Positions 416 to 27,322 of a stretch of DNA of 64,000 bases are shown here, one piece after another. Position 1 is the first letter of the stretch. The number at the start of each line of letters is the position of its first letter. The notes below the pieces were generated by a model that ran no database searches, had not been told where the DNA came from, and was given only the letters and a program-made list of their open reading frames with translations. The translations under genes were made by a program, and so were the position numbers. The stretch is from contig AP018533.1 of NCBI GenBank assembly GCA_003573975.1, positions 3,100,319-3,164,318 on the forward strand. The letters are read 5' to 3'. The stretch comes from Clostridiales bacterium CCNA10 (lineage in GTDB: Bacteria; Bacillota; Clostridia; Oscillospirales; Oscillospiraceae).

Positions 416-1180
416 TCACATCTCCAGTGCGGCGAGGAACAGCGCATTGAGTTCCTCCCAGTCCTTCGTGATTTCTCTCGGATACTGCTCCACCAGAGCA
501 CGCACCTCTGCAATGCTCCGATCCATGTAAGCGTTGAGGATATCGATTCTCGGGATCATCTTCACCTCAGGGGAGTTCATCTTCAGATCAAGCAGCTTCG
601 CAACGGTTTTCTCCAGGTAGTCCGGAAGCTGGCTCGCCGCCAGTTCAGAAAAGAGCATTGGGGGCGGAGTACCTTTTTCAAGGATCCACCGGCAAGCAAG
701 GATTGGCCGCAGTACATAGAAGTACTTCTTGGCCTTCACCATGTCGCCGCGCAGGTATTCTCGATAGTTTCCTTCCGCCATCTGCAGATAGTGCCAAAGG
801 CCACTCTTGGACGAGAAGTAGCGCCGCATGACGGGCTTAAACGCCTCAGTGAAGTCAGTGGTCTGATACACGATGGGAGAGGAAAACCACTCAAATACGG
901 TGGGGTTGGATTTATGGAGCAACTTCAGTGTCTTGTCCACATCCCAACCGTTGATGTCCAGAACACCATTGATGGGCAGCTCGATCACATCACGGACCCG
1001 GTTGAGCCTGAGATAGCTCTCTCTGGGGCGCACATAAATGAAGCGCACATCATAGTCGCTGTCCGGAGAAGCAAAGCCCCAAGCACGGCTACCGGACTCC
1101 ACGGCCAAAAGGATGCGGCAGTTCTCCCGCTGCTCGATTTCATGAAGCTTTTCTTTGATCAATGCTTCCACGGTCAACAC
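416..1180 (-). CDS. RlaP/YcgL-type DNA polymerase beta family nucleotidyltransferase
   Basis: This 254-residue protein has the minimal nucleotidyltransferase signature: SGSRAWGFASPDSDYDVRF near residue 30 contains the GS motif and the DxD metal ligands. It continues with the alpha-helical tail typical of the YcgL/RlaP family (about 250 aa). The family is repeatedly encoded next to RtcB and is thought to act in RNA repair, though its exact reaction is not settled. It sits 20 bp after rtcB and its stop is 5 bp before cca. The start is uncertain: GTG at 1180, TTG at 1177 and GTG at 1171 are all in frame behind an AAAGG ribosome site. Confidence 0.85.
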   Translation of the reverse strand: MLTVEALIKEKLHEIEQRENCRILLAVESGSRAWGFASPDSDYDVRFIYVRPRESYLRLNRVRDVIELPINGVLDINGWDVDKTLKLLHKSNPTVFEWFSSPIVYQTTDFTEAFKPVMRRYFSSKSGLWHYLQMAEGNYREYLRGDMVKAKKYFYVLRPILACRWILEKGTPPPMLFSELAASQLPDYLEKTVAKLLDLKMNSPEVKMIPRIDILNAYMDRSIAEVRALVEQYPREITKDWEELNALFLAALEM

Positions 1181-1199: not shown

Positions 1200-2402
1200 T
1201 CAGTCTGCTGCCTTAAAGTTATAGACAGGACGGATCCGCTCAATAATCTCCGCAGTAGGGCCGATTTGAGCGACGATCTCCTCCATGCTCTTATAGGCCA
1301 TGGGAGACTCGTCCAGCGTGTCGGGCACAACACAGGTGGTGTAGATACCCTCCATTTCCTTCTGGAACTCCTCCATGGACAGAGCATTGAAGGCCGCCTT
1401 GCGGCTCATCAGCCGGCCGGCGCCATGAGGTGCGGAGCAATTCCAATCCTCGTTGCCCTTGCCGCTGCAGATCAGGCTACCGTCACGCATGTTGATGGGG
1501 ATCAGCAGCTTCTCGCCGGCCTTGGCGGAGACAGAGCCCTTACGCAGGATCATGGCGTCCGTATCAATATAGTTGTGGATGGTGGTGAAGGTCTCCACCG
1601 CCGTGAAGCCCATGCCAGTCATGATAACATCCACCATGGCCTTGCGGTTGAGCATGGCGAACTGCTGTGTCAGCTTCATATCGTGGATATAGTCCTCGAA
1701 CAGCTTACCCTCCACATAGGCCAGATCTTTTGGGATATTCAGCTCGTGCTCCTTCTTGAGCGCCTTGATGGTCTTCTGGATCTCCTGGAACCGGCCCTCG
1801 GCCTTCAGCTGGTCAATGGCGGCTTGAACTTGATGCTGGGCGCCGCCCCAAAGGGCACGCCGACCCTCATTCTGGTAGTGCTCAGCCACCTCGGTGCCCA
1901 GATGACGGCTGCCAGAGTGGACCACCAGGAACAACCGGCCATCCTCCGCGCGATCCACCTCAATGAAGTGGTTGCCGCCACCCAAAGAGCCGATGCTGCG
2001 CATGGCCCGGTTGAGATTGACTTGATCTGTGCAGCGGAGGTGAGTCAGATCGATCTCAGCGTTCAGTGCATGAGGAATGTCTCGAACCTCACGGCCATAG
2101 GGGATCTCCCTGCGGATTAGGGCGTCCAGCTTCTCAAAGTCGACCTCCCGCTCACGAAGCTCAACAGTCTCCATACCGCAGCCGATATCGACGCCAACCA
2201 TACCGGGCACGATCTTGTCCTGGATGGTCATGGTGGTACCGATGGTACAGCCCTTGCCAGCGTGGACATCGGGCATGATCCGGATCTTGCAGCCGGCAAA
2301 CTCGGCCTGATCGCAAACGGTCTGGATCTGCTTGCGGGCTGCCTCCTCCAACTCGGGGGTGTAACAGACCGCAGTATTATATAAACCTTGAATCGTAATC
2401 AT
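1200..2402 (-). CDS. rtcB: RtcB RNA 3'-phosphate/5'-hydroxyl ligase
   Basis: RtcB seals RNA ends carrying 2',3'-cyclic or 3' phosphate to 5'-OH ends using GTP and Mn2+. The product is about 400 aa, matching the shorter bacterial RtcB branch. Family landmarks are DVHAGKGCTIGTT near residue 42, GVDIGCGMETV near residue 66, GTLGGGNHF-like GSLGGGNHFIEVD near residue 140, the VVHSGSRHLG motif, and APHGAGRLMSR containing the guanylylated histidine. The start MITIQG at 2402 is preceded by an AGGGAG ribosome site; the longer reading frame upstream is not needed. It follows the Ro-like gene after a terminator-like hairpin and a TTGACA box, so it may also be transcribed separately. Confidence 0.96.
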   Translation of the reverse strand: MITIQGLYNTAVCYTPELEEAARKQIQTVCDQAEFAGCKIRIMPDVHAGKGCTIGTTMTIQDKIVPGMVGVDIGCGMETVELREREVDFEKLDALIRREIPYGREVRDIPHALNAEIDLTHLRCTDQVNLNRAMRSIGSLGGGNHFIEVDRAEDGRLFLVVHSGSRHLGTEVAEHYQNEGRRALWGGAQHQVQAAIDQLKAEGRFQEIQKTIKALKKEHELNIPKDLAYVEGKLFEDYIHDMKLTQQFAMLNRKAMVDVIMTGMGFTAVETFTTIHNYIDTDAMILRKGSVSAKAGEKLLIPINMRDGSLICSGKGNEDWNCSAPHGAGRLMSRKAAFNALSMEEFQKEMEGIYTTCVVPDTLDESPMAYKSMEEIVAQIGPTAEIIERIRPVYNFKAAD

Positions 2403-2527: not shown

Positions 2528-3988
2528 TTATGCCACGATCGCCGCGTAACGCTCGGAACCCAGAACATCCATCATGAAGGCATAGGGGGAAAGAATGCCG
2601 GCTTTCAGCATGGAGAAGATTCGGGGATTACAGCCGGATACCAGCGCAACGCCCTGGTCGTTGATCTTGACGGGCTGCTGCTGATTACGGCTTGCCACAT
2701 TCCAGAACATCACCTCGGGCAGCTGGTAGCCATGTTCCTCGAAGAGCCGCTGCGTATACTCGAAGTTGGTCAAGGAGCAATCTTCAGTACAGTAGTCGAA
2801 CTCCATATCGGAGATAATGAAGATCTTGGCAGGCATATCCTTCTGGGGCACACGGTTCTTCACAGCAGTCTTGAGGATCAACTCAAACACACGCTGGATA
2901 TTGGTGTTGGCGACCTCGTTGAACTGGTGACAGTACCGCACCTTTTCGTAGATATCCTTGCCCTTAATCTCCACCAGCTTGGGATTCTCAGAGAATGTGA
3001 TGAAGTGGTTTTGGAATGCGCCGGTGTTGCGCTCGGCATAGTAGATACCAAGAGACAGCGCCACAGTGGCGGGGATGGGATCAGCACCACCGTACATGGA
3101 GCCGGAGCCATCAATGACGACCAGAGCGTTCTCACCGCCAGTGAAATCCTCCTGTGTCTTCCATGTTGCGTCAATGGCCTTGCGCTCCTGATCGGAGATA
3201 TCGCCGCGACCGAAGAAGGGCTTGATCATCTCATAGGGCATCAGGGTGCCAGTGTGGAGCTGCTCCGTACCCTCGGCGACACGGCTCATGAATTCATCAT
3301 AGCGGTCTCCATCATTTCGCATGAAGGCCTTACGATACTTGAACATGGCCTTGGAGGGCTGCTTGGAGTAATCGAAGGTGTAGTCTTTTTCGCGCAGGTT
3401 GTTCTCGATGATGCTGATCTTGGTGCGCAGGGCGCTCAGCGTTTTGCGGTACTGGGCGTCGTTCATACCCATCGCACGGGCAATTCGCTTCGCCTGCCGG
3501 ATCGCATCCTCGTTGGAGGCATTGACGGAAGGAAGCCACTTGGCCAGCAGCGACACGGACTCGCCAGCCTCCAGAGCGGCACAGTCGGCTGCCAGCTGTT
3601 TTTTGATCAGATGCAGCACCTTGCCTTCGCATGTGGTGCCCATCAGGACCAGCAGGTCATCGTAGCGTCCATACTCTGCAATGTACTGGATGTTCTTCTC
3701 CAGGGATTGCGGCTCGTTGTCGGCCAGCCACTTCAGAATGGTACGGAAGACACGGCGCTCGCCGATACCGCCACGAATATCTCTCGCAAAGAACAGGGTC
3801 TTCATGGCCAGATCAGCGTCTTCGGCATAGGCGCGGAGGAAGCGATTCGTGATCTCCTCGTCACGCTCTCTGCGCAGGGCGCCGATCGTAGCGAACAGAT
3901 CCAGACATTCAGACTGGGTGGAACGATATGTAACTGCGCCATTTTCCGTATGGGTCATATTTGCTTCTTTCTTTAGAAACTTCAGCAT
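2528..3988 (-). CDS. Ro60/TROVE-related DUF2828-type protein with C-terminal vWA domain
   Basis: A 486-residue protein of the TROVE/DUF2828 type. Ro60 proteins are rings that bind Y RNAs and misfolded or damaged RNA. The N-terminal half is helical, with RDIRGGIGERRVFRTI near residue 70 and YIAEYGRYDDLL near 105. The C-terminal vWA domain carries the MIDAS motif DGSGSMYGG near residue 285, plus ANTNIQRVFELIL and IISDMEFDY, patterns I know from DUF2828 proteins. ATG 3988 is chosen because GGAGGAG lies 8 bp upstream; a GTG at 3997 overlaps that site. Immediately upstream is an array of six Y-RNA-like transcripts, and rtcB follows, matching the Ro-Y RNA-RtcB arrangement known in other bacteria. 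RNA binding is inferred. Confidence 0.85.
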   Translation of the reverse strand: MLKFLKKEANMTHTENGAVTYRSTQSECLDLFATIGALRRERDEEITNRFLRAYAEDADLAMKTLFFARDIRGGIGERRVFRTILKWLADNEPQSLEKNIQYIAEYGRYDDLLVLMGTTCEGKVLHLIKKQLAADCAALEAGESVSLLAKWLPSVNASNEDAIRQAKRIARAMGMNDAQYRKTLSALRTKISIIENNLREKDYTFDYSKQPSKAMFKYRKAFMRNDGDRYDEFMSRVAEGTEQLHTGTLMPYEMIKPFFGRGDISDQERKAIDATWKTQEDFTGGENALVVIDGSGSMYGGADPIPATVALSLGIYYAERNTGAFQNHFITFSENPKLVEIKGKDIYEKVRYCHQFNEVANTNIQRVFELILKTAVKNRVPQKDMPAKIFIISDMEFDYCTEDCSLTNFEYTQRLFEEHGYQLPEVMFWNVASRNQQQPVKINDQGVALVSGCNPRIFSMLKAGILSPYAFMMDVLGSERYAAIVA

Positions 3989-4021
3989 GGAAATCACTCC
4001 TCCGTGATGAATTGGTTATAC

Positions 4022-4098
4022 AAGGCACCATCAGGGATTTGAACCCGAAAGTACGATTTCTAGTCGTAGTTGTTACCAAGAATTGCTGTTGGTGCCTT
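4022..4098 (-). ncRNA. Y-RNA-like tRNA mimic, copy 1
   Basis: The 77-base minus-strand RNA has perfectly complementary ends, AAGGCACCA with TGGTGCCTT (9 bp). The 5' strand is followed by ACAGC. The interior looks like a reduced tRNA: a GG-containing D-like loop, an anticodon-like arm TACGA-CTAGAAA-TCGTA with a 7-base loop (AGA at the anticodon position), and a T-like arm with the loop TTCAAAT. It lacks a normal 7-bp acceptor stem with 3' CCA. The 3' end is 19 bp from the Ro-like gene's ribosome site. Called a Y RNA because the stem-plus-tRNA-like-module design and the linkage to a Ro-like gene match bacterial YrlA RNAs. Confidence 0.65.
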
Positions 4099-4102
4099 TC
4101 AC

Positions 4103-4205
4103 AAGATGCCTGACATATCGCAAGTCCTAAGCCGCCAGTTGACCGGCGCCCTGACCTCTGCATCGGATCGGATTCAAGACCGTTGGGTGTTGCTGTGGGC
4201 ATCTT
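4103..4205 (-). ncRNA. Y-RNA-like structured RNA, copy 2
   Basis: Ends AAGATGCC and GGCATCTT form an 8-bp closing stem; the 5' strand runs into CACAGCA, the motif shared with the neighbours. The interior is less tRNA-like than in the other copies: one clear hairpin CGCC-GGTCAACT-GGCG is seen, with a weakly paired remainder. It lies 4 bp from copy 1 and 12 bp from copy 3, consistent with processing from one transcript. Membership in the array is well supported by the stem and motif; its interior fold is uncertain. Confidence 0.5.
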
Positions 4206-4217
4206 TATTGATAAAAC

Positions 4218-4314
4218 AAGGCACCATGTGAAGTGGGAATCGAACCCACGAACGACGGGTATGAACCGCCTGCTATAACCATCTTAGCTATTCAATCTTT
4301 GCTGTTGGTGCCTT
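4218..4314 (-). ncRNA. Y-RNA-like tRNA mimic, copy 3 (CAT anticodon-like loop)
   Basis: The same 9-bp closing stem as copy 1 (AAGGCACCA/TGGTGCCTT) and the same ACAGCAA after it. The interior is the best tRNA mimic: a short TGAA/TTCA stem in place of the acceptor, a D arm GCTA...TAGC with GG in the loop, an anticodon arm GGCGG-TTCATAC-CCGTC (CAT), and a T arm GTGGG-TTCGATT-CCCAC with a canonical T loop. An internal loop (ACAGCAAAGAT opposite CA) separates this module from the closing stem. It cannot be a functional tRNA, because a tRNA acceptor stem is missing. Confidence 0.7.
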
Positions 4315-4328
4315 TTTGTCTAAGGAGT

Positions 4329-4414
4329 GAATACATCATCCGGGTGGGGCTCGAACCCACGACACAGAGATTGGGGTCTCCCGTTCTACCATCTGAACTA
4401 CCGGAGATGTATTC
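4329..4414 (-). ncRNA. tRNA-like RNA with bulged, extended stem, copy 4 of array
   Basis: GAATACATC pairs with GATGTATTC (9 bp). After a single bulged U on the 3' side, TCCGG pairs with CCGGA (5 bp), running straight into a tRNA-like body. The D arm is GTTC-AGATGGTA-GAAC and the T arm GTGGG-TTCGAGC-CCCAC. The anticodon arm GGAGA/TCTCT encloses only six bases (CCCCAA), abnormal for a tRNA. This copy lacks the ACAGC motif of the others, so it may be a different class or a decayed tRNA. Spacing to its neighbours (3 and 14 bp) fits the array. Confidence 0.6.
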
Positions 4415-4417
4415 GAC

Positions 4418-4528
4418 AAGACGCTGTCCTTTATCATCATAAAGGGGGTCTCACCCTTTGTCGGCCTGCCCCGAAAGCAGGTGCTCCTTCGTTGAGCTAA
4501 TGTTAATAGATAATGCTGTTAGCGTCTT
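4418..4528 (-). ncRNA. Y-RNA-like tRNA mimic, copy 5 (TCG anticodon-like loop)
   Basis: Ends AAGACGCT and AGCGTCTT form an 8-bp closing stem followed by AACAGCA. Inside are a D-like arm GCTC-AACGAAG-GAGC, an anticodon arm CCTGC-TTTCGGG-GCAGG with TCG at the anticodon position, and a T-like arm AAAGGG-TGAGACC-CCCTTT. The last could compete with another hairpin, CCTTTA-TGATGA-TAAAGG, suggesting a possible switch between folds. The closing-stem sequence differs from copies 1 and 3 while pairing is kept, which is covariation evidence for the stem. Confidence 0.65.
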
Positions 4529-4532
4529 TTAC

Positions 4533-4626
4533 AAAGCGCATTCTTTATTCCGGAGAGGTTACTACGCCAGACCAGAACAGCGTCTATGATTAAAAGTCAT
4601 ATGCATGGGTTTGCTGTATGCGCTTT
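4533..4626 (-). ncRNA. Y-RNA-like tRNA mimic, copy 6 (first in the array, TTT anticodon-like loop)
   Basis: Ends AAAGCGCAT and ATGCGCTTT form a 9-bp closing stem, followed by ACAGCAA. The interior has an anticodon-like arm TATGA-CTTTTAA-TCATA with TTT at the anticodon position and a looser hairpin ACGC...GCGT in place of a T arm. It is the most upstream RNA. A TATTCT box at 4642-4637 would place a transcription start near 4630, close to its 5' end, but no good -35 is seen. The region 4627-4817 holds no gene. Confidence 0.6.
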
Positions 4627-4817
4627 TCGTGATTTAAGAATACTGCCTGTTCAGAGGAAAAACACGGAAAAAAAGTTGCGAACTCAAGAGCAACTACCTA
4701 AAAGTCTGCGAAAAATTGGTTCAAACCCATTCCAGACCGCAGTTGGCAAGGAGCTGTTCTTTCATTTGGACACCTCCTGTGGTAAAATGAGGCCATAAAC
4801 TGCAGGAGGTGGATTTC

Positions 4818-6065
4818 GTGGCATATAGTGAGTTGGTCAAGAGTTTTGAGCGTATCCGGAGCTACATGCGCGAATTCTATGTCTATGGGTTTAAGAGTCG
4901 GGAAGAGTACAGCATCAAGAGTGCCCGCAGCTACGATAATGAGCGGCGAAGAATTGAGAGTTGGATCGGCGACTTTATGTCCTTCCATCAGGACACATCC
5001 GGCAAGAATGTATTCCTCTCGGTTGACAGCAGGCGGATCCCACACAACCCGCTCCACAAGGCTTTTAAAGCCAAAAGCTTTACCGATAAGGACATCACCC
5101 TCCACTTCTATGTGATGGACCTGCTGGCCGATGGCAGCGCGCTTTCTTCCAGAGAGATTGTCGATTGCATCAATGATGACTATCTCTCTCATTTCAGCGG
5201 CGCCTTCTCTCCAGACGAATCCACCGTGCGGAAAAAGCTCAAGGAATATGAGGCGCTTGGTCTGCTAAGCTCCGAGAAATGCGGTCGTGAGGTACTCTAC
5301 CGGAGAACGGATGATAACACCGTTGATTTGAATACCTGGGCAGACGCCCTATCCTTTTTCTCCGAGGAGGATCCACTCGGGGTGATTGGCTCCTTCTTGA
5401 TCGATAAATTGGAAAAACCTTCTGATAGCTTCCGATTCAAACATCACTACATGCTCCACGCCCTGGACAGTGATGTCCTCTGTGATCTGTTGGCGGCAAT
5501 CGATGAAAAAAGAGCTGCGGAACTGACCGTCAGGAGCCTGCGGAGTGGCCGCGACTATCAAAGGACGGTTTGTCCTCTGAAGATCTATGTCAGCACCCAG
5601 TCCGGGCGCCAGTATCTGCTCGGCTACCATTACCGGGGGCGGCACTTATCTTTCTTCCGGTTGGATGCCATCAAAAAGGTCACGATTGGGAATGTCGAGA
5701 AACACTACAGCAAGTACTTAGGGTACCAGGAGAAGTTTGACCAGCACCTTTGGGGTGTCTCAACGGGTCCCGACCATAATTTGGATCATATTGAAATGAC
5801 GGTCCATTTTGACCCGGGCGAGGAATTCGTGCTGCACCGCCTGGAGCGCGAGAAGCGCCATGGTACAGTCGAACTATTGGACTCACAGACTTGCAGGTTT
5901 TCAGCCGATGTCTATGATGCCTCAGAGATACTGCCCTGGCTGCGCACCTTCATCGGCCGCATTGTAGATCTCAAATGCTCCAGCCAGTATGTTTTGGATA
6001 TGTTCCAAGAAGATTTGGCTCGGATGGACGCTCTGTACGGAGGTGGCAACGATGTTATTCAGTGA
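4818..6065 (+). CDS. WYL-domain transcriptional regulator (first of a pair)
   Basis: A 415-residue protein with an N-terminal helical region, a winged-helix segment around residues 95-160 (SSREIVDCIN... DESTVRKKLKEYEALGLL), and a WYL domain at about residues 245-300 (RQYLLGYHYRGRHLSFFRLDAIKKV). A C-terminal extension typical of ligand-sensing WYL repressors follows. Such proteins often control phage-defence or damage-response operons. The GTG at 4818 is chosen because AGGAGG lies 8 bp upstream; the GTG at 4809 overlaps that site. Its stop overlaps the next gene by 14 bp, so the two WYL proteins are translationally coupled and may form a heteromer (inference). Confidence 0.85.
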   Translation: MAYSELVKSFERIRSYMREFYVYGFKSREEYSIKSARSYDNERRRIESWIGDFMSFHQDTSGKNVFLSVDSRRIPHNPLHKAFKAKSFTDKDITLHFYVMDLLADGSALSSREIVDCINDDYLSHFSGAFSPDESTVRKKLKEYEALGLLSSEKCGREVLYRRTDDNTVDLNTWADALSFFSEEDPLGVIGSFLIDKLEKPSDSFRFKHHYMLHALDSDVLCDLLAAIDEKRAAELTVRSLRSGRDYQRTVCPLKIYVSTQSGRQYLLGYHYRGRHLSFFRLDAIKKVTIGNVEKHYSKYLGYQEKFDQHLWGVSTGPDHNLDHIEMTVHFDPGEEFVLHRLEREKRHGTVELLDSQTCRFSADVYDASEILPWLRTFIGRIVDLKCSSQYVLDMFQEDLARMDALYGGGNDVIQ

Positions 6066-6963
6066 GATCTACGGAAGCTATTTCAATGTCGTCGCAGCTG
6101 TCCTTTCCGAAGCATCCGATGGGAAGTTGACAGATCGAAGAATGACCGAGCTTGTCCGGGAAAAGGCTTTCGCGGAAAGCGCGCTTGCAATTCCGGCAGC
6201 GCTGAAATCCGGAACCTGGCCTTTACTCGATCAGGAGTATCATTCCATACTTCACCACAAGCCAACCATGCCTTTGACAATGCTCCAAAAGAGATGGCTC
6301 AAAGCGCTGCTGTCTGATCCCAGAATCGCTCTGTTTGATCCGGACACGACCGGGCTGGAAGATGTTGATCCGCTGTATGCTCAGGACACCTTCATTCTCT
6401 TTGACCAGTACGCGGACGGAGATCCGTATGGGGATCCCGCCTACATAGCTTGCTTCCAAACAGCACTGAAGGCAATTCGAAAGAAGAGAAAACTGCGTAT
6501 CCGGTTCCGTGGCCATACCGGCGCCCGCCATTCGATCGAGTGTATACCTTACCGCCTGGAATATTCCGCCAAGGACGATAAGTTCAGGTTACTGGCAACC
6601 GGCAAGCGACGGCTCAACACGATCAATATGGCTCGTGTGCGTTCATGCGAGTTGCTGGATGCCTATGATCCCAAATCCATCACGCTGCCTCAGGAAAATT
6701 CCGAAGAGCTTGTAATGCTGCTTCATGACGAGCGCAACGGGCTGGAACGTGTGCTGCTACACTTCTCCCATTTTGAAAAAGAGACTCAGAAGTTGGCCGA
6801 TCGGCTCTATCAGATCAGGCTCCGTTACGACAAGGACGATGAGACCGAGCTGCTTATTAGGGTGCTGTCCTTCGGCCCGGTGCTGGAAGTCATTGAACCA
6901 AGCGCTTTTGTCACGCTGATGAGAAAGCGGATTGCCGTTCAGAAACAGCGCTTCTGCCAATAA
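6052..6963 (+). CDS. WYL-domain protein (second of a pair)
   Basis: A 303-residue protein with WYL-type features: FRGHTGARHSIECIPYRLEYSAKDDKFRL around residues 150-180 and RRLNTINMARVRSCEL after it match the beta-barrel core and its ligand-facing arginines. No clear winged helix is visible at the N-terminus, unlike its upstream partner. ATG 6052 follows GGAGG by 8 bp; the longer upstream frame overlaps the previous gene and is rejected. It is followed 51 bp later by a MoxR ATPase gene, so it probably belongs to the same transcription unit and regulates it. Confidence 0.75.
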   Translation: MLFSEIYGSYFNVVAAVLSEASDGKLTDRRMTELVREKAFAESALAIPAALKSGTWPLLDQEYHSILHHKPTMPLTMLQKRWLKALLSDPRIALFDPDTTGLEDVDPLYAQDTFILFDQYADGDPYGDPAYIACFQTALKAIRKKRKLRIRFRGHTGARHSIECIPYRLEYSAKDDKFRLLATGKRRLNTINMARVRSCELLDAYDPKSITLPQENSEELVMLLHDERNGLERVLLHFSHFEKETQKLADRLYQIRLRYDKDDETELLIRVLSFGPVLEVIEPSAFVTLMRKRIAVQKQRFCQ

Positions 6964-8103: not shown

Positions 8104-9467
8104 CTGATAAGCGAATCAATAAGCTCAAAAGAAAACTCCAGGAGGCCCGGTATCGGCTTCTGACACGGGAGCCGGAGTTGGCGGCGCCGCTGGTAGAGAT
8201 GTTGTTTGTCACCAATGTGGATGTGCGCCGGATGTCAACAAACGGGAGTTGCATCTACTTTGACGCGAGCTGGTTGGAAAAGCTCGACGACAACAGCTTG
8301 GATTTTGCGCTCTGCCACCAGCTCATGCATATCCGGTTAGGGCATCTCTCACGCCCGCAGTTTTATAAAGGTGACCGTTTTCACTTTGCCTGCAATATCG
8401 TTGTCAACTCCTCGCTTATCCGGTATGACTTCACGGATGACAAGCTCCCTGGAATCGGCGAGATCCACCATGAGACTTTTTATCCCAAAGTTGAAGGCTG
8501 CGAGTTGACGCCTTACGAGGCATTTCAGATGACACCTTTGGATCCTTCCACGTTGAGTGATGCGCAGCGCCGCAATCTCCTGCTGGATTCAGATGAGTGG
8601 TGGGATAGGCCGAACGCCCGCACCGAGGATGGGGTCCTGATTCTCAGCCCGGATGACCCTGATCCCGATGACCTAATTCCATCTGAGCGCATTCGAGGAA
8701 TCATCGAGCGAGTGTGCAAAGGGTTCCGCAAGCAGGAGATGCCTGAAGTATATCGCCCGGAAGCAGATGATGATGACGAACTGGACGATCTCATCTTCGA
8801 GTATACAACACGCCCGAGTGCGAATCTCAAAGAGGCAATTCGGGAAATCCGGGGTTCAAAGGACCGCGATGCAGAAAACTATGACAGTAGCACCCTTTGT
8901 GAGCGCGTCCTTCACCGATCGAAAATCACGACTCACGATTGGCAATCTCTCTTGAACCACTTTATCATGGACGAAACAAGGGACTACAGCTTTACCCCTC
9001 CCGATCGCAGGCTGCAGGACCTGGACTTCTTTCTGCCGGATTACAACGAGTCTGAAACGCCCAGGCTCAATGTTTTGTTCATGGTTGATATCTCTGCCTC
9101 TTTGAAAGATCAGGAAGTGGCCATGGCCGCCGCCGAGATCTGCGCAGCTATTGAGCAATTCGGCGGGATGCTTAGCGGCTCCATCGGTTTCTTTGATTCG
9201 GAAGTCCGACGGGTAGTTCCCATTACCAGTGCGGAAAACCTGCTGCAACTGAAGCCATATAGCGGAGGCGGGACAAGTTTCCAGTGCATTTTTGATTATG
9301 TTCGGGAACATATGTCTGACAATGTTCCTTCAGAAATCGTCATCATGACAGATGGGAAAAGCGATTTCCCGGAATATGAGGCCTCATCCGGCATACCTGT
9401 GCTCTGGCTGCTCACCAATAACCGTGTTAGGATCCCCTGGGGGCAGGCGGCGTACTTCCGAAAATAG
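8100..9467 (+). CDS. vWA-domain protein with degenerate metallopeptidase-like N-terminus
   Basis: A 455-residue protein of the DUF2201 type. The N-terminal half resembles a zincin: CHQLMHIRLGHL near residue 78 sits where related proteins have HExxH...GH, but the catalytic Glu is Gln (HQLMH), so peptidase activity is doubtful. An acidic linker (EADDDDELDDL) follows. The C-terminal vWA domain has MIDAS residues in VDISASLKD near residue 330, a Thr site in GGGTSFQ and a late TDGKSD. It overlaps the MoxR gene by 4 bp. Likely the metal-dependent adaptor or effector partner of that ATPase. Confidence 0.85.
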   Translation: MTDKRINKLKRKLQEARYRLLTREPELAAPLVEMLFVTNVDVRRMSTNGSCIYFDASWLEKLDDNSLDFALCHQLMHIRLGHLSRPQFYKGDRFHFACNIVVNSSLIRYDFTDDKLPGIGEIHHETFYPKVEGCELTPYEAFQMTPLDPSTLSDAQRRNLLLDSDEWWDRPNARTEDGVLILSPDDPDPDDLIPSERIRGIIERVCKGFRKQEMPEVYRPEADDDDELDDLIFEYTTRPSANLKEAIREIRGSKDRDAENYDSSTLCERVLHRSKITTHDWQSLLNHFIMDETRDYSFTPPDRRLQDLDFFLPDYNESETPRLNVLFMVDISASLKDQEVAMAAAEICAAIEQFGGMLSGSIGFFDSEVRRVVPITSAENLLQLKPYSGGGTSFQCIFDYVREHMSDNVPSEIVIMTDGKSDFPEYEASSGIPVLWLLTNNRVRIPWGQAAYFRK

Positions 9468-9476
9468 GAGGTATTT

Positions 9477-9611
9477 GTGCATACACAGGAACAACGTATT
9501 AGTCAAAATGCATTGACTTGCCAATTCCGGCCATTAACGGTACAATATGAGCACAGAATCATCACCATGGAGGTATTGCAATGGCAACGGATAGCACCCT
9601 TCAAAAAATAG
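9477..9611 (+). CDS. Possible 44-aa peptide ORF overlapping the next gene
   Basis: A GTG codon 5 bp after a perfect GGAGG opens a 44-codon frame ending 31 bp inside the next gene. No family is recognised. A promoter for the next gene lies inside it. It may be a small coupled peptide, or the ribosome site may be incidental. Confidence 0.2.
   Translation: MHTQEQRISQNALTCQFRPLTVQYEHRIITMEVLQWQRIAPFKK
9518..9546 (+). promoter_or_regulatory. Promoter for the TPR/nuclease gene
   Basis: TTGCCA (9518-9523) and TACAAT (9541-9546) are separated by 17 bp, a good sigma-A match. It would start transcription about 30 bp before the ATG at 9581, giving the TPR gene its own expression besides readthrough. 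Confidence 0.6.
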
Positions 9612-11125
9612 CCGATAATCTTCTCGCGCAATTCGACAAGACTCTACTTGATAATTCAACAGATTTTTCTTCTTGCGACCAAATATTGAACGCAGCTCCC
9701 TCTGAACACAAAGGTGGGTTGGAGTCCCTTTACTGTGATCTACTTTTGGACGCACTTATTTCGGGTTACTACAGGTATTCCGAGATGGACACCAAGCAGT
9801 TGGTCGATGACCCACTATATACAAAATTCAAGAAAATGGTATATGGACTCGATAGATCGGATCCATACAATTTGCTGTACTACGCCATTATTGATTTGGT
9901 ATCCGGAAAGAAAGAGAATGTTCTTCAGTACTTGTCGGCTTACCTAGATGAAAAAATCAAAAGCCTCAAAACAGAGTCTGGGATATTCACAGCTGAGGAT
10001 TTCACATACATTCTGGTGGTTCCACTGAAAGAGGGCTTTCCCGGTATGTGGAGCGCCATAGGAAGAATGCTGGATAGAGACGATGTTGAAGCAGGAATCC
10101 CTGAAATGTGTGCTGCTCTGGATCACCTGTATTATGACTCTAAGAATGAGAGCATCATCGAGTCACTTACCCAGGTCTTACAGTGTAATCCGAAGATCCT
10201 GTTAGCAAAAGAACTCCTCGGATATACCTACTACAATATGCAGATGTTGGGAAATGCACTCTCATATTTTGAGCAATTTGAAGATGGAAAACCCACATCT
10301 CGCATTTTCCTTGAGGGCACCGTCTACTTCTGGATGGCATGGTGCTACGGAAAGAAAAAGGACTGTCTCAAGGAAGAAGAATACTATCGGAAGTCACTTG
10401 AGGCTCTTCCTGTCGGCGAAAATACCCTAAATAATCTAGGGTACTCGCTGTATAAACAGAGGAAATTCAAAGAAGCCCAAAGCGTATTTGAAGACTGCCT
10501 GCGGCAGAATCGAGATGTGCGCTATGCCGCAAATAATCTCGTGCGAACCCTTCTCGCCCAAGGCAAGAATGGAGAGGCTCAGAGAGTCATCCAAGAGCAT
10601 GAGCGTTTTGTCTCAAAGGATTTGAAGAAGAGGGCTGAAAAGCCAGTTGGCAAAGTAAAAATCGCTGTCCCAGAGCCTGCCGTTACTGATGTTGAGGCGG
10701 AAACGATCGTAGACATCGGCGTAAAAAAACAGCAATTCTCCAGCGAAAAGCTTCTCGAAGATGAACTGGTGCAGCGGATGGAAATTGGCATTCCTGTATT
10801 TGGGATGCCGCTCCGTATATATCAGAAGCGAGGTGTCTATGGCAGGCAATTTGTTTTGAGGAATGGCAGGCTTGATATCCTTGGGATTGATACCGCTGGA
10901 GACCTGTATGTTATCGAGTTGAAAAAGGACTCTGGCTATGATGACGCTTATGCACAAACGCGAGAGTATATCGATTGGATTGAGGAAGATGTTGCAGTCA
11001 AAGGACAGCGTGTATTTGGCATAATATGTTTGAATGATCCGACAAAAGATCTCATTGAAAAAGTCAAGGCTGACGATCAGATGCGGCTATTTGAGTACTC
11101 CATTTCCTATTCAGAGATTATCTAA
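9581..11125 (+). CDS. TPR-repeat protein with C-terminal NucS/DUF91-like nuclease domain
   Basis: A 514-residue protein. Residues about 190-350 hold TPR-like helical repeats (for example ENTLNNLGYSLYKQRKFKEA and LAKELLGYTYYNMQMLGNAL). Residues about 390-510 form a PD-(D/E)xK-type domain like NucS: RNGRLDILGID and LYVIELKKD supply the Asp and the ExK. NucS-family nucleases cut mismatched or branched DNA; here the TPRs probably recruit a protein partner. ATG 9581 has GGAGG 7 bp upstream. It stands at the end of the WYL-MoxR-vWA cluster and could be its nuclease effector (inference). Confidence 0.75.
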   Translation: MATDSTLQKIADNLLAQFDKTLLDNSTDFSSCDQILNAAPSEHKGGLESLYCDLLLDALISGYYRYSEMDTKQLVDDPLYTKFKKMVYGLDRSDPYNLLYYAIIDLVSGKKENVLQYLSAYLDEKIKSLKTESGIFTAEDFTYILVVPLKEGFPGMWSAIGRMLDRDDVEAGIPEMCAALDHLYYDSKNESIIESLTQVLQCNPKILLAKELLGYTYYNMQMLGNALSYFEQFEDGKPTSRIFLEGTVYFWMAWCYGKKKDCLKEEEYYRKSLEALPVGENTLNNLGYSLYKQRKFKEAQSVFEDCLRQNRDVRYAANNLVRTLLAQGKNGEAQRVIQEHERFVSKDLKKRAEKPVGKVKIAVPEPAVTDVEAETIVDIGVKKQQFSSEKLLEDELVQRMEIGIPVFGMPLRIYQKRGVYGRQFVLRNGRLDILGIDTAGDLYVIELKKDSGYDDAYAQTREYIDWIEEDVAVKGQRVFGIICLNDPTKDLIEKVKADDQMRLFEYSISYSEII

Positions 11126-24978: not shown

Positions 24979-25353
24979 TCACTTGCGTTCGAATACAAAA
25001 CTGATACGGTCTTGGTATTCAGGCAACTGCTCCAGATAGGCATTAAGGCGCCGTTCTACCTCAGCACGCTCCAAAGCTGATGCTTCTACCGGGCTTAGGT
25101 CGTGTCCACCTTCCTCCATGATATCCACTGCCATTTCATACAGCAGTTTATCCAGAAGCTCTTCGGGGCTATCAATTGCAAGGCAGTCCATGTCGCCGAC
25201 AGTACCGCGGCAACTATCGATGCTGATGTAGATATACCCGACCTTACCAGACCATACAATATCGAAGTATGGAGTTGTTTTGATGTACTCGGAGAATACG
25301 CTCATGACTCGTTCAATGGCCTCTTTCACGCTGGTGTCATATTCCTTTTTCAT
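24979..25353 (-). CDS. Hypothetical protein, 124 aa
   Basis: A small acidic protein starting MKKEYDTSVKEAIERVMS, with an AAGGAGGG ribosome site; the longer upstream frame is rejected. YFDIVWSGKVGYIYISID suggests a beta-rich core, and the C-terminus is helical. No family is recognised. It lies between two CoiA-like genes and is probably part of the same message. Confidence 0.6.
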   Translation of the reverse strand: MKKEYDTSVKEAIERVMSVFSEYIKTTPYFDIVWSGKVGYIYISIDSCRGTVGDMDCLAIDSPEELLDKLLYEMAVDIMEEGGHDLSPVEASALERAEVERRLNAYLEQLPEYQDRISFVFERK

Positions 25354-25366
25354 GTCGGAGCCCTCC

Positions 25367-26320
25367 TTAAAATCGAATGGATGGGAGATGCACCTCTCCA
25401 TACTTATCTGCTTCATGGATAATGCGAGGATAAGCACAGTAGAAGAACAAACCTCCTTGCCTATAATCCGTTCCTGTCCGGAACTCGTTGATTAAATTGT
25501 TCTGACATTCCCGGCATTGGTTGTTATGCCAATCGTGCGTTTTCGGGCATATGTACCAGTCCCGTGGATTACCCTTGATTCGGCTGCACTTCGGCGCATA
25601 GGGTTGGTTATCACGGAGGAAGGCATCAAACCGCTTCCGCTTGCTCAACAGAATGTTTTGTAGGCCGTCTTCAGTAAAAAGATCTGGCGCAAAACCATCA
25701 TCAATGAAGAATCGGCGATAGTCGGCATACCCGTCATCGTCTACGATCGCCCACTCCACCTTCACGAGCCATTCGCAACCGTCGTCATCATGGTCTTCGG
25801 TGAGCTGCAGAACGATTGCTATATCTGTGGATCGCTGAGGAACAACTGAAGCGAGCGCGCGATTCGGCCACTTCCACACAAACTTGTTCTCATCATCCAG
25901 GCTGCTGGAGATATACTCATTCCCAAAGGCGTAGGTCTCATCGAACACCCAAATCACCTTATAGCCGGCCCTCATGTAGAACTTATTGCGCCGTTCAAAT
26001 TCACCGGCAGAAATCGGACTGTGCTGAAACTCAATGACATAGCCGCCCATCAAGATGTCTGCACGATGGCATTCGCCCCTGTGTTCCACGACAATCTCAC
26101 GAACATTTTCGGGAAAACGCGATTGCCATCCTCGGTGCCATTCAGACATATCGTATTTCCAGTCATCCATACACGAGGTCACATGAGCGAAGTGCCACGA
26201 ATTGACTTCGCCCTGGCGAGGAATCACCTGGTTGCCGCACACAGGACAGTAATACTCTTGCCCCTTCTCCGCATCAAATGCGTGAACGCGGTGATGATCC
26301 GCTGTCAAAGCATATTCCAA
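25367..26320 (-). CDS. CoiA-like nuclease 2
   Basis: A 317-residue protein more typical of the CoiA family. It has a zinc knuckle YYCPVCGNQVIPRQGE followed by WHFAH near residues 22-45, then a restriction-like core: HRADILMGGYVIEFQHSPIS near residue 85, where RAD and EFQ supply the catalytic Asp, Glu and Gln. C-terminal Cys pairs (CPKTH, CRECQNN) may bind another zinc. The start is TTG with GGAGG 7 bp upstream. Probably a DNA nuclease for defence or recombination; the true substrate is unknown. Confidence 0.75.
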   Translation of the reverse strand: MEYALTADHHRVHAFDAEKGQEYYCPVCGNQVIPRQGEVNSWHFAHVTSCMDDWKYDMSEWHRGWQSRFPENVREIVVEHRGECHRADILMGGYVIEFQHSPISAGEFERRNKFYMRAGYKVIWVFDETYAFGNEYISSSLDDENKFVWKWPNRALASVVPQRSTDIAIVLQLTEDHDDDGCEWLVKVEWAIVDDDGYADYRRFFIDDGFAPDLFTEDGLQNILLSKRKRFDAFLRDNQPYAPKCSRIKGNPRDWYICPKTHDWHNNQCRECQNNLINEFRTGTDYRQGGLFFYCAYPRIIHEADKYGEVHLPSIRF

Positions 26321-26344
26321 AGTGATCCCTCCTCACAGAATAAT

Positions 26345-27322
26345 CTAATCGCTGTCTTCTTGGCTGCTCGCGTCTCTCTGGAAGCCATACTCAAAAAAGC
26401 ACATGTCTAGGATTTTGGCTGCCGGATACTCAATTCGGCTGCCGCAATGTTTCCGGAGCTTTTCAAACTCATCCTCATGGTCAAGATACAGGTTGCCAAG
26501 GGTTCGGATGGATTTCGCACTGAATACTTGGGGTGCTGCACCGGTATCAGCAAGAGCCTTTTTGAAATACCGATCATAGGCGGGTACGCAGCCCACAGTA
26601 CCCAGCAAGATCTTGGTAAGCAAGGTATCCGTTGGGATGCCGGCACCGGACGCCACATAAGCTTCTGTAATGCTCTCGCTAAGTTTCATGATGCGGTCAG
26701 CATAATACTCCTGCGAGAGTTTCTCGGGAGAAAGGTCCCAGAGATCATCCCACTCCGGCTGATAAATCAAACGGACAACATCCGCATGGATCTTGTAATC
26801 CTTCTGCATGAGGAAAGAGTTTCGAAGCATACCCCAACTGGCCAAATACCAAGCCAAGTGCAGGCAGAGATAGTCGATCGTGGCGTCAATCTGCGGGCGC
26901 CTATTCAGCCGAAACGCTTCATGGCAGTACTCCCAAGAGAGATACCGGTGATGTGGATCATCCTTCATACTGTCATAGCACTCGTATCCGGCTTGAATGG
27001 CTTCAGCAAGTTTTTTCTGATCCACAACACGATAGGGCGGCTTACTATGGTGCGTGTGGCCCTGTACTTCGCCTTTCCTGAATACGACCCATTGTTCCTC
27101 TAAACTAATGGAATCCACGACATATCCCGCACTGATCCAGCTGGAGCAAAAGGATGCAGGGTTTGAGAGATTTGCCCAGGATGGTCTGTTCTTATATGCG
27201 TGGTTAGGGATTGGGATGATCTGGTTCAACTCATCGAAAGTAAGCTTAACAGAGTCTCCTCCGTGTTCCTTCAACCAATTTCCAAGTGGAGCATATTTCT
27301 CTCCAATAGCCATATCCGTCAC
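26345..27322 (-). CDS. Protein with N-terminal DUF7662-like domain, 325 aa
   Basis: The first 75 residues (KYAPLGNWLKEHGGDSVKLT, then LSNPASFCSSWISAGYVVD) resemble the small domain often found in toxins and ParE-like neighbours now called DUF7662. The remaining 220 residues are helical with LHLAWYLASWGMLRNSFLMQ near residue 150, and I do not recognise them. The GTG at 27322 overlaps the stop of the upstream exonuclease gene; an ATG three codons later is also possible. Confidence 0.6.
   Translation of the reverse strand: MTDMAIGEKYAPLGNWLKEHGGDSVKLTFDELNQIIPIPNHAYKNRPSWANLSNPASFCSSWISAGYVVDSISLEEQWVVFRKGEVQGHTHHSKPPYRVVDQKKLAEAIQAGYECYDSMKDDPHHRYLSWEYCHEAFRLNRRPQIDATIDYLCLHLAWYLASWGMLRNSFLMQKDYKIHADVVRLIYQPEWDDLWDLSPEKLSQEYYADRIMKLSESITEAYVASGAGIPTDTLLTKILLGTVGCVPAYDRYFKKALADTGAAPQVFSAKSIRTLGNLYLDHEDEFEKLRKHCGSRIEYPAAKILDMCFFEYGFQRDASSQEDSD

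Follow-up and report, generated by a model that had tools for sequence, protein, structure and literature searches.

Why should a gut bacterium keep a row of tRNA-like elements directly upstream of a gene for a Ro60-like protein? This question is raised by a 64,000-nucleotide stretch of the Clostridiales bacterium CCNA10 genome (contig AP018533.1, positions 3,100,319 to 3,164,318), referred to below as the window, in which six such units, U1 to U6, form a tandem array at positions 4022-4626 of the minus strand. Read along that strand, the order is U6, U5, U4, U3, U2 and U1, then a 33-base gap, a DUF2828/DUF7788 gene and the genes for RtcB and RlaP. To our knowledge, the role of bacterial Ro proteins and Y RNAs is still largely open. 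A preliminary description, according to which one or two Y RNAs are usual at known bacterial Ro loci, proposed that the units are diverse Y-RNA-like tRNA mimics acting as decoys or as adaptors. Comparison of sequences and predicted structures established a family of array RNAs, the Ro-like fold of the modelled protein partner, mimicry of translation RNAs and, in some units, a switch of anticodon between relatives. Whether the array gives rise to small Y-RNA-like RNAs serving as nuclease decoys or baits on a Ro-like ring, coupled to repair, is in our estimate evenly balanced, and this is the reading weighed below.

A conserved handle with variable heads

Judged by comparison among loci, a handle-bearing unit combines a conserved handle (a closing helix, the motif ACAGCAA and a G) with a variable head. 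In U1, U2, U3, U5 and U6 the complementary ends form 8-9 bp, a G follows the 3' arm, and ACAGCA lies at the inner end of the 5' arm or one base beyond it. U6 (4533..4626) is closed by the helix AAAGCGCAT/ATGCGCTTT and carries ACAGCAA and an anticodon-like arm, TATGA-CTTTTAA-TCATA, with the Lys-like triplet UUU. U5 (4418..4528; helix AAGACGCT/AGCGTCTT, ACAGCA) contains a T-arm-like hairpin, a D-arm-like part and the anticodon-like arm CCTGC-TTTCGGG-GCAGG (UCG). In U3 (4218..4314; helix AAGGCACCA/TGGTGCCTT, ACAGCAA) the interior is cloverleaf-like, with the loop TTCATAC (CAU), and U2 (4103..4205; helix AAGATGCC/GGCATCTT, ACAGCAA) has a putative anticodon-like loop, CUUGAAU, on a short stem. U1 (4022..4098) is closed, as is U3, by AAGGCACCA/TGGTGCCTT, followed by ACAGCAA, a T-arm-like hairpin and the anticodon-like arm TACGA-CTAGAAA-TCGTA (AGA). 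The tRNA-like element U4 (4329..4414) has its own GAATACATC/GATGTATTC stem and lacks the ACAGC motif; its relative in the locus L001 (loci are numbered with the prefix L) has the stem GAATGCATC/GATGCATTC, in which a base change on one side of the stem is matched on the other. The six adjacent minus-strand units described earlier were thus recovered, their 8-9 bp ends in all except U4, and the loops named for AGA (U1, CTAGAAA), CAT (U3, TTCATAC), TCG (U5, TTTCGGG) and TTT (U6, CTTTTAA) are all present.

The handle was tested against chance in 52 DUF2828 neighbourhoods with a total length of about 454 kb. These comprised the window, 23 loci from genome contigs, one viral contig, 12 further genome regions (a copy of L001 being excluded), 13 of the 673 phage records in which DUF2828 relatives were found (among 50,697 phage records) and 2 of the 4 plasmid records carrying the protein. 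Near-copies were kept in the unit count, among them L058, a near-copy of the window locus. A strict unit was defined by at least 7 pairs with at most one G-U, CAGCA at a fixed offset and a G after the arm. By this rule 155 units (151 distinct sequences) were found on the strand of the gene and 4 on the antisense strand, against 1.8 in block-shuffled sequence; here, as for the unit definition and the tRNA-insert and rRNA comparisons, shuffling kept the single-base content only. At least one strict unit occurs in 46 of the 52 loci, with a maximum of nine in one array (L016); none was found in L024, L051, L061, L072, L073 and L076, and in L051 there are two units with CAGCC replacing CAGCA. Since the motif was derived from bacterial loci prior to any reading of the phage loci, the latter constitute an independent test, and strict units are present in 11 of the 13 phage records.

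The 100% pairing among distinct strict units is built into the rule and is not evidence. When sites were picked by ACAGCAA alone, a 7-base partner arm lay exactly at the offset in 114 of 176, compared with 4 when the arm letters were shuffled, 0 to 7 at other offsets and none of 36 antisense sites; the remaining 62 lack a partner arm by the 7-bp rule. Conservation of the stems in homologous loci, set beforehand as one test of the array, was borne out by the unit counts and by this comparison. In the whole CCNA10 genome, the pattern AARRYRCNNACAGCA has 11 matches and its reversed control none: 5 lie in the window array, 2 at a second DUF2828 gene (G000:C1:1013977-1015479) and 2 in a tRNA cluster, and the last 2, at 1086198 and 2734231, form no unit by the rule used.

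Several loci contain further structured RNAs. About 40 kb past the second CCNA10 DUF2828 gene (1053778-1060141; L049, L107) lies a phage-like cluster in which 22 tRNA genes and one tmRNA gene are interspersed with six Y-like units. In a Lachnospiraceae contig, three Y-like units occur in a tRNA-rich, probably phage-derived stretch (L022, 94-2205) that lies upstream, by 4-5 kb, of a divergent DUF2828 gene. In L018 a ROOL RNA (4797-5391; 287.3 bits) stands directly upstream of the Y-like array, and in L005, between Y-like units (about 5229-5437), there is a small hairpin array of a different kind, made up of three units in tandem, each about 50 bases long and closed by ACACCG.../...CGGTGT.

tRNA and 23S rRNA in the heads

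By sequence and predicted pairing, many of the heads consist of an anticodon arm or a tRNA body, and some relatives carry a 23S rRNA hairpin instead; the tRNA mimicry proposed earlier thus holds for many heads, but mimicry is not confined to tRNA. With the Rfam tRNA model (gathering score 29), U3 scored 44.6 bits and U4 40.1 bits (4336-4407), and U1, U2, U5 and U6 were unmatched; in the array ARAGORN reported U4 only, as tRNA-???, its identity not being called. There is no free acceptor end with CCA, the ends being closed by the handle helix in U1-U3, U5 and U6 and by the GAATACATC stem in U4. On account of these closed ends and of the single ARAGORN call without identity, plain tRNA genes were rejected.

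For statistics, the units were divided into a bacterial set of 118 distinct units (all non-phage loci together with L063 and L075) and a phage set of 33, and dinucleotides were kept in the shuffles for loop sizes and arm counts. In the bacterial set, 7-base loops on 5-pair stems number 109 against 25.2 in shuffled sequence, an excess greater than at the neighbouring sizes (5 bases, 59 vs 26.0; 6 bases, 51 vs 24.1; 8 bases, 35 vs 23.7). An anticodon-like arm (Y32 U33, R37, 4-pair stem, T-loops excluded) was found in 41 of the 118 units (5.7 in shuffles); a T-arm is present in 26 (0.34 in shuffles) and in 8 of the 33 phage units (0.17). The anticodon-like arms of both sets carry 25 different triplets. 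As a reference, 45 distinct anticodon loops were taken from the fetched CCNA10 tRNA genes, which include the phage-like cluster and form part of the genome's 95 tRNA hits. Of the bacterial 7-base loops on 4-pair stems, 23 of 185 are identical to a reference loop (expectation with permuted letters 0.68, maximum 5 in 500 rounds), as are 5 of 46 such phage loops (vs 0.18). Two heads (L018 and L021) share 75% identity with tRNA-Ala over 60 bases.

The 23S rRNA copies emerged when 158 interiors of strict and relaxed units were compared with the CCNA10 rRNA operon. Above the shuffled maximum (28.1 bits in ten rounds) the interiors match only the tRNA genes of the operon and one 23S site, GTCAGGTAAGTTCTGAC and its flanks, which we take to be the helix 70/71 region. 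The scores at this site are 40.5 bits for L005, 32.8 for L009 and 31.2 for L006; the hairpin GTCAGGTAAGTTCTGAC is exact in these three loci and present as a variant in L007, and L021 has a looser version at 25.0 bits, within the shuffled range. Over all 52 neighbourhoods, both strands, eight 15-mers match 16S or 23S rRNA, and the three that lie in units are the GTCAGGTAAGTTCTGAC site; the other five, each a lone match elsewhere in the rRNAs, lie outside strict units and were rejected as further heads. In the CCNA10 23S gene the copied hairpin is directly preceded by UUCCU. MazF toxins are described as cutting UUCCU in helix/loop 70 of 23S rRNA, and tRNA as well, MazF-mt9 being named as doing so (PMC5408214).

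Covariation is clearest in the U3 family, which was aligned from ten loci. Its cloverleaf has 93.9% of cells paired, compared with 78.3% in shuffles and at most 48.0% when partners were slid, and 13 of 18 pairs changed on both sides, including all five pairs of the anticodon stem. D-arm, anticodon arm and T-arm succeed one another as in a tRNA, and the place of the acceptor end is taken by the handle, so that the anticodon would be displayed. The loop triplets are CAU (window, L001, L004), UAC (L002), GAA (L005, L018), CAC (L011) and AAA (L021), and the loop is non-standard in form in L003 and L006.

The change of triplets can be followed among orthologous units in L058, L001 and L002, three loci in which the DUF2828 protein shares 98, 93 and 90% identity, respectively, with that of the window. 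All triplets of L058 are those of the window. In U1, AGA of the window is replaced by CTGCAAA (GCA) in L002; in U3, CAU of the window and L001 is replaced by UAC in L002; and in U6, UUU of the window is replaced by CTGTTAA (GUU) in L001, the latter arm being mismatched next to the loop. The aligned short-stem loops of U2 read CUUGAAU in the window, UUUGGAU in L001 and UUUGCAU in L002. U5 of L001 (CCTGA-CTTCGGG-TCAGG) has a stem altered on both sides and an unchanged triplet. Diverse Y-RNA-like tRNA mimics beside a Ro60-like gene, as first suggested, are thus backed by fold, handle, covarying cloverleaf and anticodon loops, with the exception of U4, which is without the handle.

The arms are not always in tRNA order. 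Among 16 units in which both the D-arm and the T-arm were found, 9 are canonical, every one of them from a bacterial locus, and 7 were scored as permuted, one of these rows (L006) being two units merged. The T-arm precedes the D-arm, as in YrlA, in some phage units and one unit of L016, and the U3 of the window is canonical. Moreover, in four loci complete tRNA genes contain, at the place of the anticodon loop, 49-55 bases in which the parts of the handle recur in a permuted arrangement: the 3' arm comes first, then G, a short loop, the 5' arm and the motif. These are L049 (CCNA10 genome; 9313-9429 and, read by eye, 8776-8890, minus strand), L055 (7222-7334), L070 (Cronobacter phage LPCS28; 5895-6015 and 6025-6137) and L071 (Aeromonas phage LAh_9; 1367-1483); the motif is ACAGCA in L049, L055 and L071 and TTCAGCA in L070. 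A similar insert with a weaker motif lies at 8975-9097 of L049. We infer from these arrangements that a YrlA-type unit may be a handle-bearing tRNA gene after circular permutation. The U3-type heads of the window have the opposite orientation, with the handle at the acceptor end and the anticodon displayed.

The Ro-like protein and the neighbouring genes

The presumed RNA partner, encoded at 2528..3988 (minus strand), was assigned DUF2828 and DUF7788 (vWA) domains by Pfam and a Ro60-like fold by structure prediction. Its AlphaFold2 model (pLDDT 84.9) was placed with Ro60/TROVE structures by Foldseek and VIA-align, and the predicted architecture is a helical-repeat ring closed by a vWA domain, whose residues D293, S295, G296 and S297 are invariant in 24 aligned proteins. 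By sequence, the protein matches DUF7788 and DUF2828 only, and not TROVE (PF05731), at E 0.001; a PF05731 search of the CCNA10 genome gave no match, and a sequence search of solved structures for relatives was not useful (best E 0.51). The term Ro60-like, as used in the preliminary description, fits the fold and needs amending as to sequence.

Downstream on the minus strand are the genes for the RNA ligase RtcB (1200..2402; PF01139) and the nucleotidyltransferase RlaP of an RNA repair pathway (416..1180; PF10127). On the other side of the array, two WYL genes, an AAA ATPase gene and a metallopeptidase-vWA gene all diverge from it. The WYL-domain protein at 4809..6065 (plus strand; PF13280) is a presumed regulator, and a second WYL-like protein at 5989..6963 (plus strand), whose true start is probably later in frame, was recognized by a PADLOC WYL model (1.5e-10), its Pfam WYL and WCX matches being below cut-off. 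Relatives of the window genes were found for RtcB in 21, for the WYL pair in 19 and for RlaP in 7 of the 52 loci, some of which are cut by contig ends. A candidate promoter or operator, the TTCGCAACTTTTTTTCC element (4666..4682, minus strand), lies upstream of the array and occupies this position, on the strand of the gene, in 10 of the 52 loci (window, L001, L002, L003, L004, L006, L017, L018, L058 and L059). A scan of 3980-4830 for sigma-70 promoters and terminators was uninformative (2 promoter-like sites vs 1.1 expected, no terminators). Farther off in the window, at 9581-11125, a TPR protein with a NucS-like C-terminal nuclease domain resembles the PADLOC families PDC-S02 and PDC-S11; together with a MoxR/DUF2201 pair, it was found again among the 52 loci only in L058, many loci being too short.

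A proposed decoy role, rival explanations and known systems

Of the two roles proposed earlier, that of decoy fits the comparative data best. The DUF2828 ring would bind the handle and keep the RNAs stable, and the heads, as decoys or baits, would draw off enzymes cutting translation RNAs at the mimicked places, so that real tRNAs and rRNA are spared. The attackers could be anticodon nucleases and MazF/VapC-like toxins originating from phages, rivals or the cell itself. A cut bait or tRNA might then be resealed by the adjacent RtcB and RlaP, and the WYL regulators might switch the locus through the conserved TTCGCAACTTTTTTTCC element; in phages, the same particle would protect phage translation. 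Different heads would cover different attackers, which would explain both the arrays and the anticodon switching. A bolder version, which we put forward tentatively and hold to be rather less probable than the decoy role itself, is a modular RNA immunity bank, i.e. a Ro-like ring with interchangeable baits, each copying the site (tRNA anticodon loops, the 23S helix 71 region) at which a given class of ribonuclease toxin or anticodon nuclease cuts, diversified by swaps of heads and anticodons and equipped with repair enzymes in the operon. It would be the RNA counterpart of polyimmunity loci, shared and traded between gut Clostridia and phages, and as part of the same tentative proposal the handle within the anticodon loop of whole tRNA genes would offer a simple origin for circularly permuted Y RNAs.

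Several observations weigh against the decoy role. Of the 118 bacterial units, 77 have no anticodon-like arm under the stem-4 rule, so that most heads are unexplained. Several loops, e.g. TTTCGGG and CTAGAAA, equal none of the 45 reference loops, and in the phage set the excess of anticodon-like arms is weak (6 of 33 vs 1.9), since shuffles reach 6. Not every altered orthologue switched its triplet; some decayed. The anticodon-like arm is lost from U1 of L001 and not clearly recognizable in U6 of L002, and L002 is without U4 and U5 and has a U2 without the motif. The rRNA heads copy the hairpin beside the MazF site and do not keep UUCCU itself, which makes the MazF link suggestive only. RtcB is unmatched in 31 of the 52 loci (some contig-truncated), and PADLOC has no model for DUF2828, RtcB or RlaP at E 0.01. 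Finally, Salmonella YrlA was reported to be uncut by a RecA-dependent nuclease (PMC7790460), which gives no precedent for a known Y RNA as a cleaved bait.

The best-surviving rival, to which we would give perhaps half the credence of the decoy role, is that the units are adaptors, each head recruiting a different tRNA- or rRNA-binding enzyme (a nuclease, a modification enzyme or a PNPase-like exonuclease) to the Ro-like ring. The handle-plus-head anatomy would be the same, heads without a recognizable anticodon arm would suit varied partners, and there is a precedent in Deinococcus, where a Y RNA tethers PNPase to Rsr (PMC7790460, PMC12282133). However, the heads copy substrate loops, including exact anticodon loops, and some switch anticodon between near relatives, which a fixed partner enzyme would not predict. 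An unlikelier alternative is that the units are sensors, i.e. that a cut head alters the particle or frees an end and thereby induces the repair genes through the WYL regulators. The WYL pair, the conserved upstream element and the regulation of the Salmonella rtc operon by damaged tRNA (PMC7790460) would agree with this, but 11 of the 13 phage records with the gene lack RtcB or WYL matches to the window proteins, and few heads would suffice for sensing, not five to nine. It is quite improbable that the units are a cis-acting leader, i.e. structured 5' UTR (untranslated region) elements or processing signals of the DUF2828 mRNA by which the protein regulates itself: the window and almost every bacterial locus with units do have them upstream of the gene on its strand, but strict units are downstream of it in the phages L064, L065, L067 and L070, and the six units of the CCNA10 tRNA cluster are about 40 kb from the second DUF2828 gene. 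That the units are relics (decayed tRNA genes and chance inverted repeats), as the tRNA-Ala-like heads and the lost arms could suggest, is refuted for the family as a whole by the handle counts, compensatory changes and loop enrichment and is scarcely credible, although it could hold for single units.

With one conserved handle and many heads, a good part of them readable as known RNA targets, the array resembles a natural experiment run many times, in which the decoy idea becomes testable head by head and a sequence signature is available for finding more members. It also ties together phage tRNA clusters, RNA repair and toxin warfare.

Among known systems, YrlA (RF02553) with Rsr/Ro60 (PF05731) is the closest: an end-paired small RNA with a tRNA-like module is encoded by a Ro-fold protein gene, in some neighbourhoods also with RtcB. 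In the window, too, the 5' and 3' ends pair into a stem and the gene is next to that of a Ro-fold protein, but in U3 the T-arm does not precede the D-arm; the U3 family follows the arm order of tRNA, with the handle in place of the acceptor end. The array handle is a helix with ACAGCAA, which the YrlA consensus lacks, the protein is DUF2828 rather than TROVE by sequence, and arrays reach nine strict units and include 23S rRNA heads. No match reached the RF02553 cut-off of 69 bits; the best in the window, spanning two units, scored 19.3 bits, and three units in two of six phage loci scanned scored 47.8, 39.8 and 35.8 bits. With covariance scores under the cut-off, YrlA membership was rejected. 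The authors of PMC7790460 state that their study left the role of bacterial Ro and Y RNAs unaddressed, and propose inhibition of an anticodon nuclease as a possible function of the tRNA-like domain of YrlA.

Phage tRNAs that evade anticodon nucleases (PMC11455837) likewise set tRNA-type RNAs against such enzymes. These are working, cut-resistant tRNAs, whereas the array units have no free acceptor end and could presumably act only as decoys or adaptors. Such arrays are not described among the literature matches listed, a survey that did not extend to three main papers on bacterial Y RNAs and RNA repair. For Listeria phage CKA15, Y RNAs were proposed, the DUF2828 protein was found in virions and highly transcribed non-coding regions lie up to 2 kb upstream (PMC12282133); the one region of that paper compared by coordinates (26,236-26,727) differs from the units found here (about 25,290-25,552 of the record) and is thus no evidence for their expression. 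The phage loci annotated as DUF2828 'Ro-like RNA binding protein' (mycobacteriophage, Felixounavirus, Listeria phage CKA15) belong to the same family (phrog_850) and have the same handle, but often fewer units, sometimes a permuted YrlA-like head and sometimes a position downstream of the gene. By all these comparisons, the array, which is filed neither as YrlA nor as TROVE because a defining feature of each was looked for and found absent, appears to work like a Ro-Y RNA particle.
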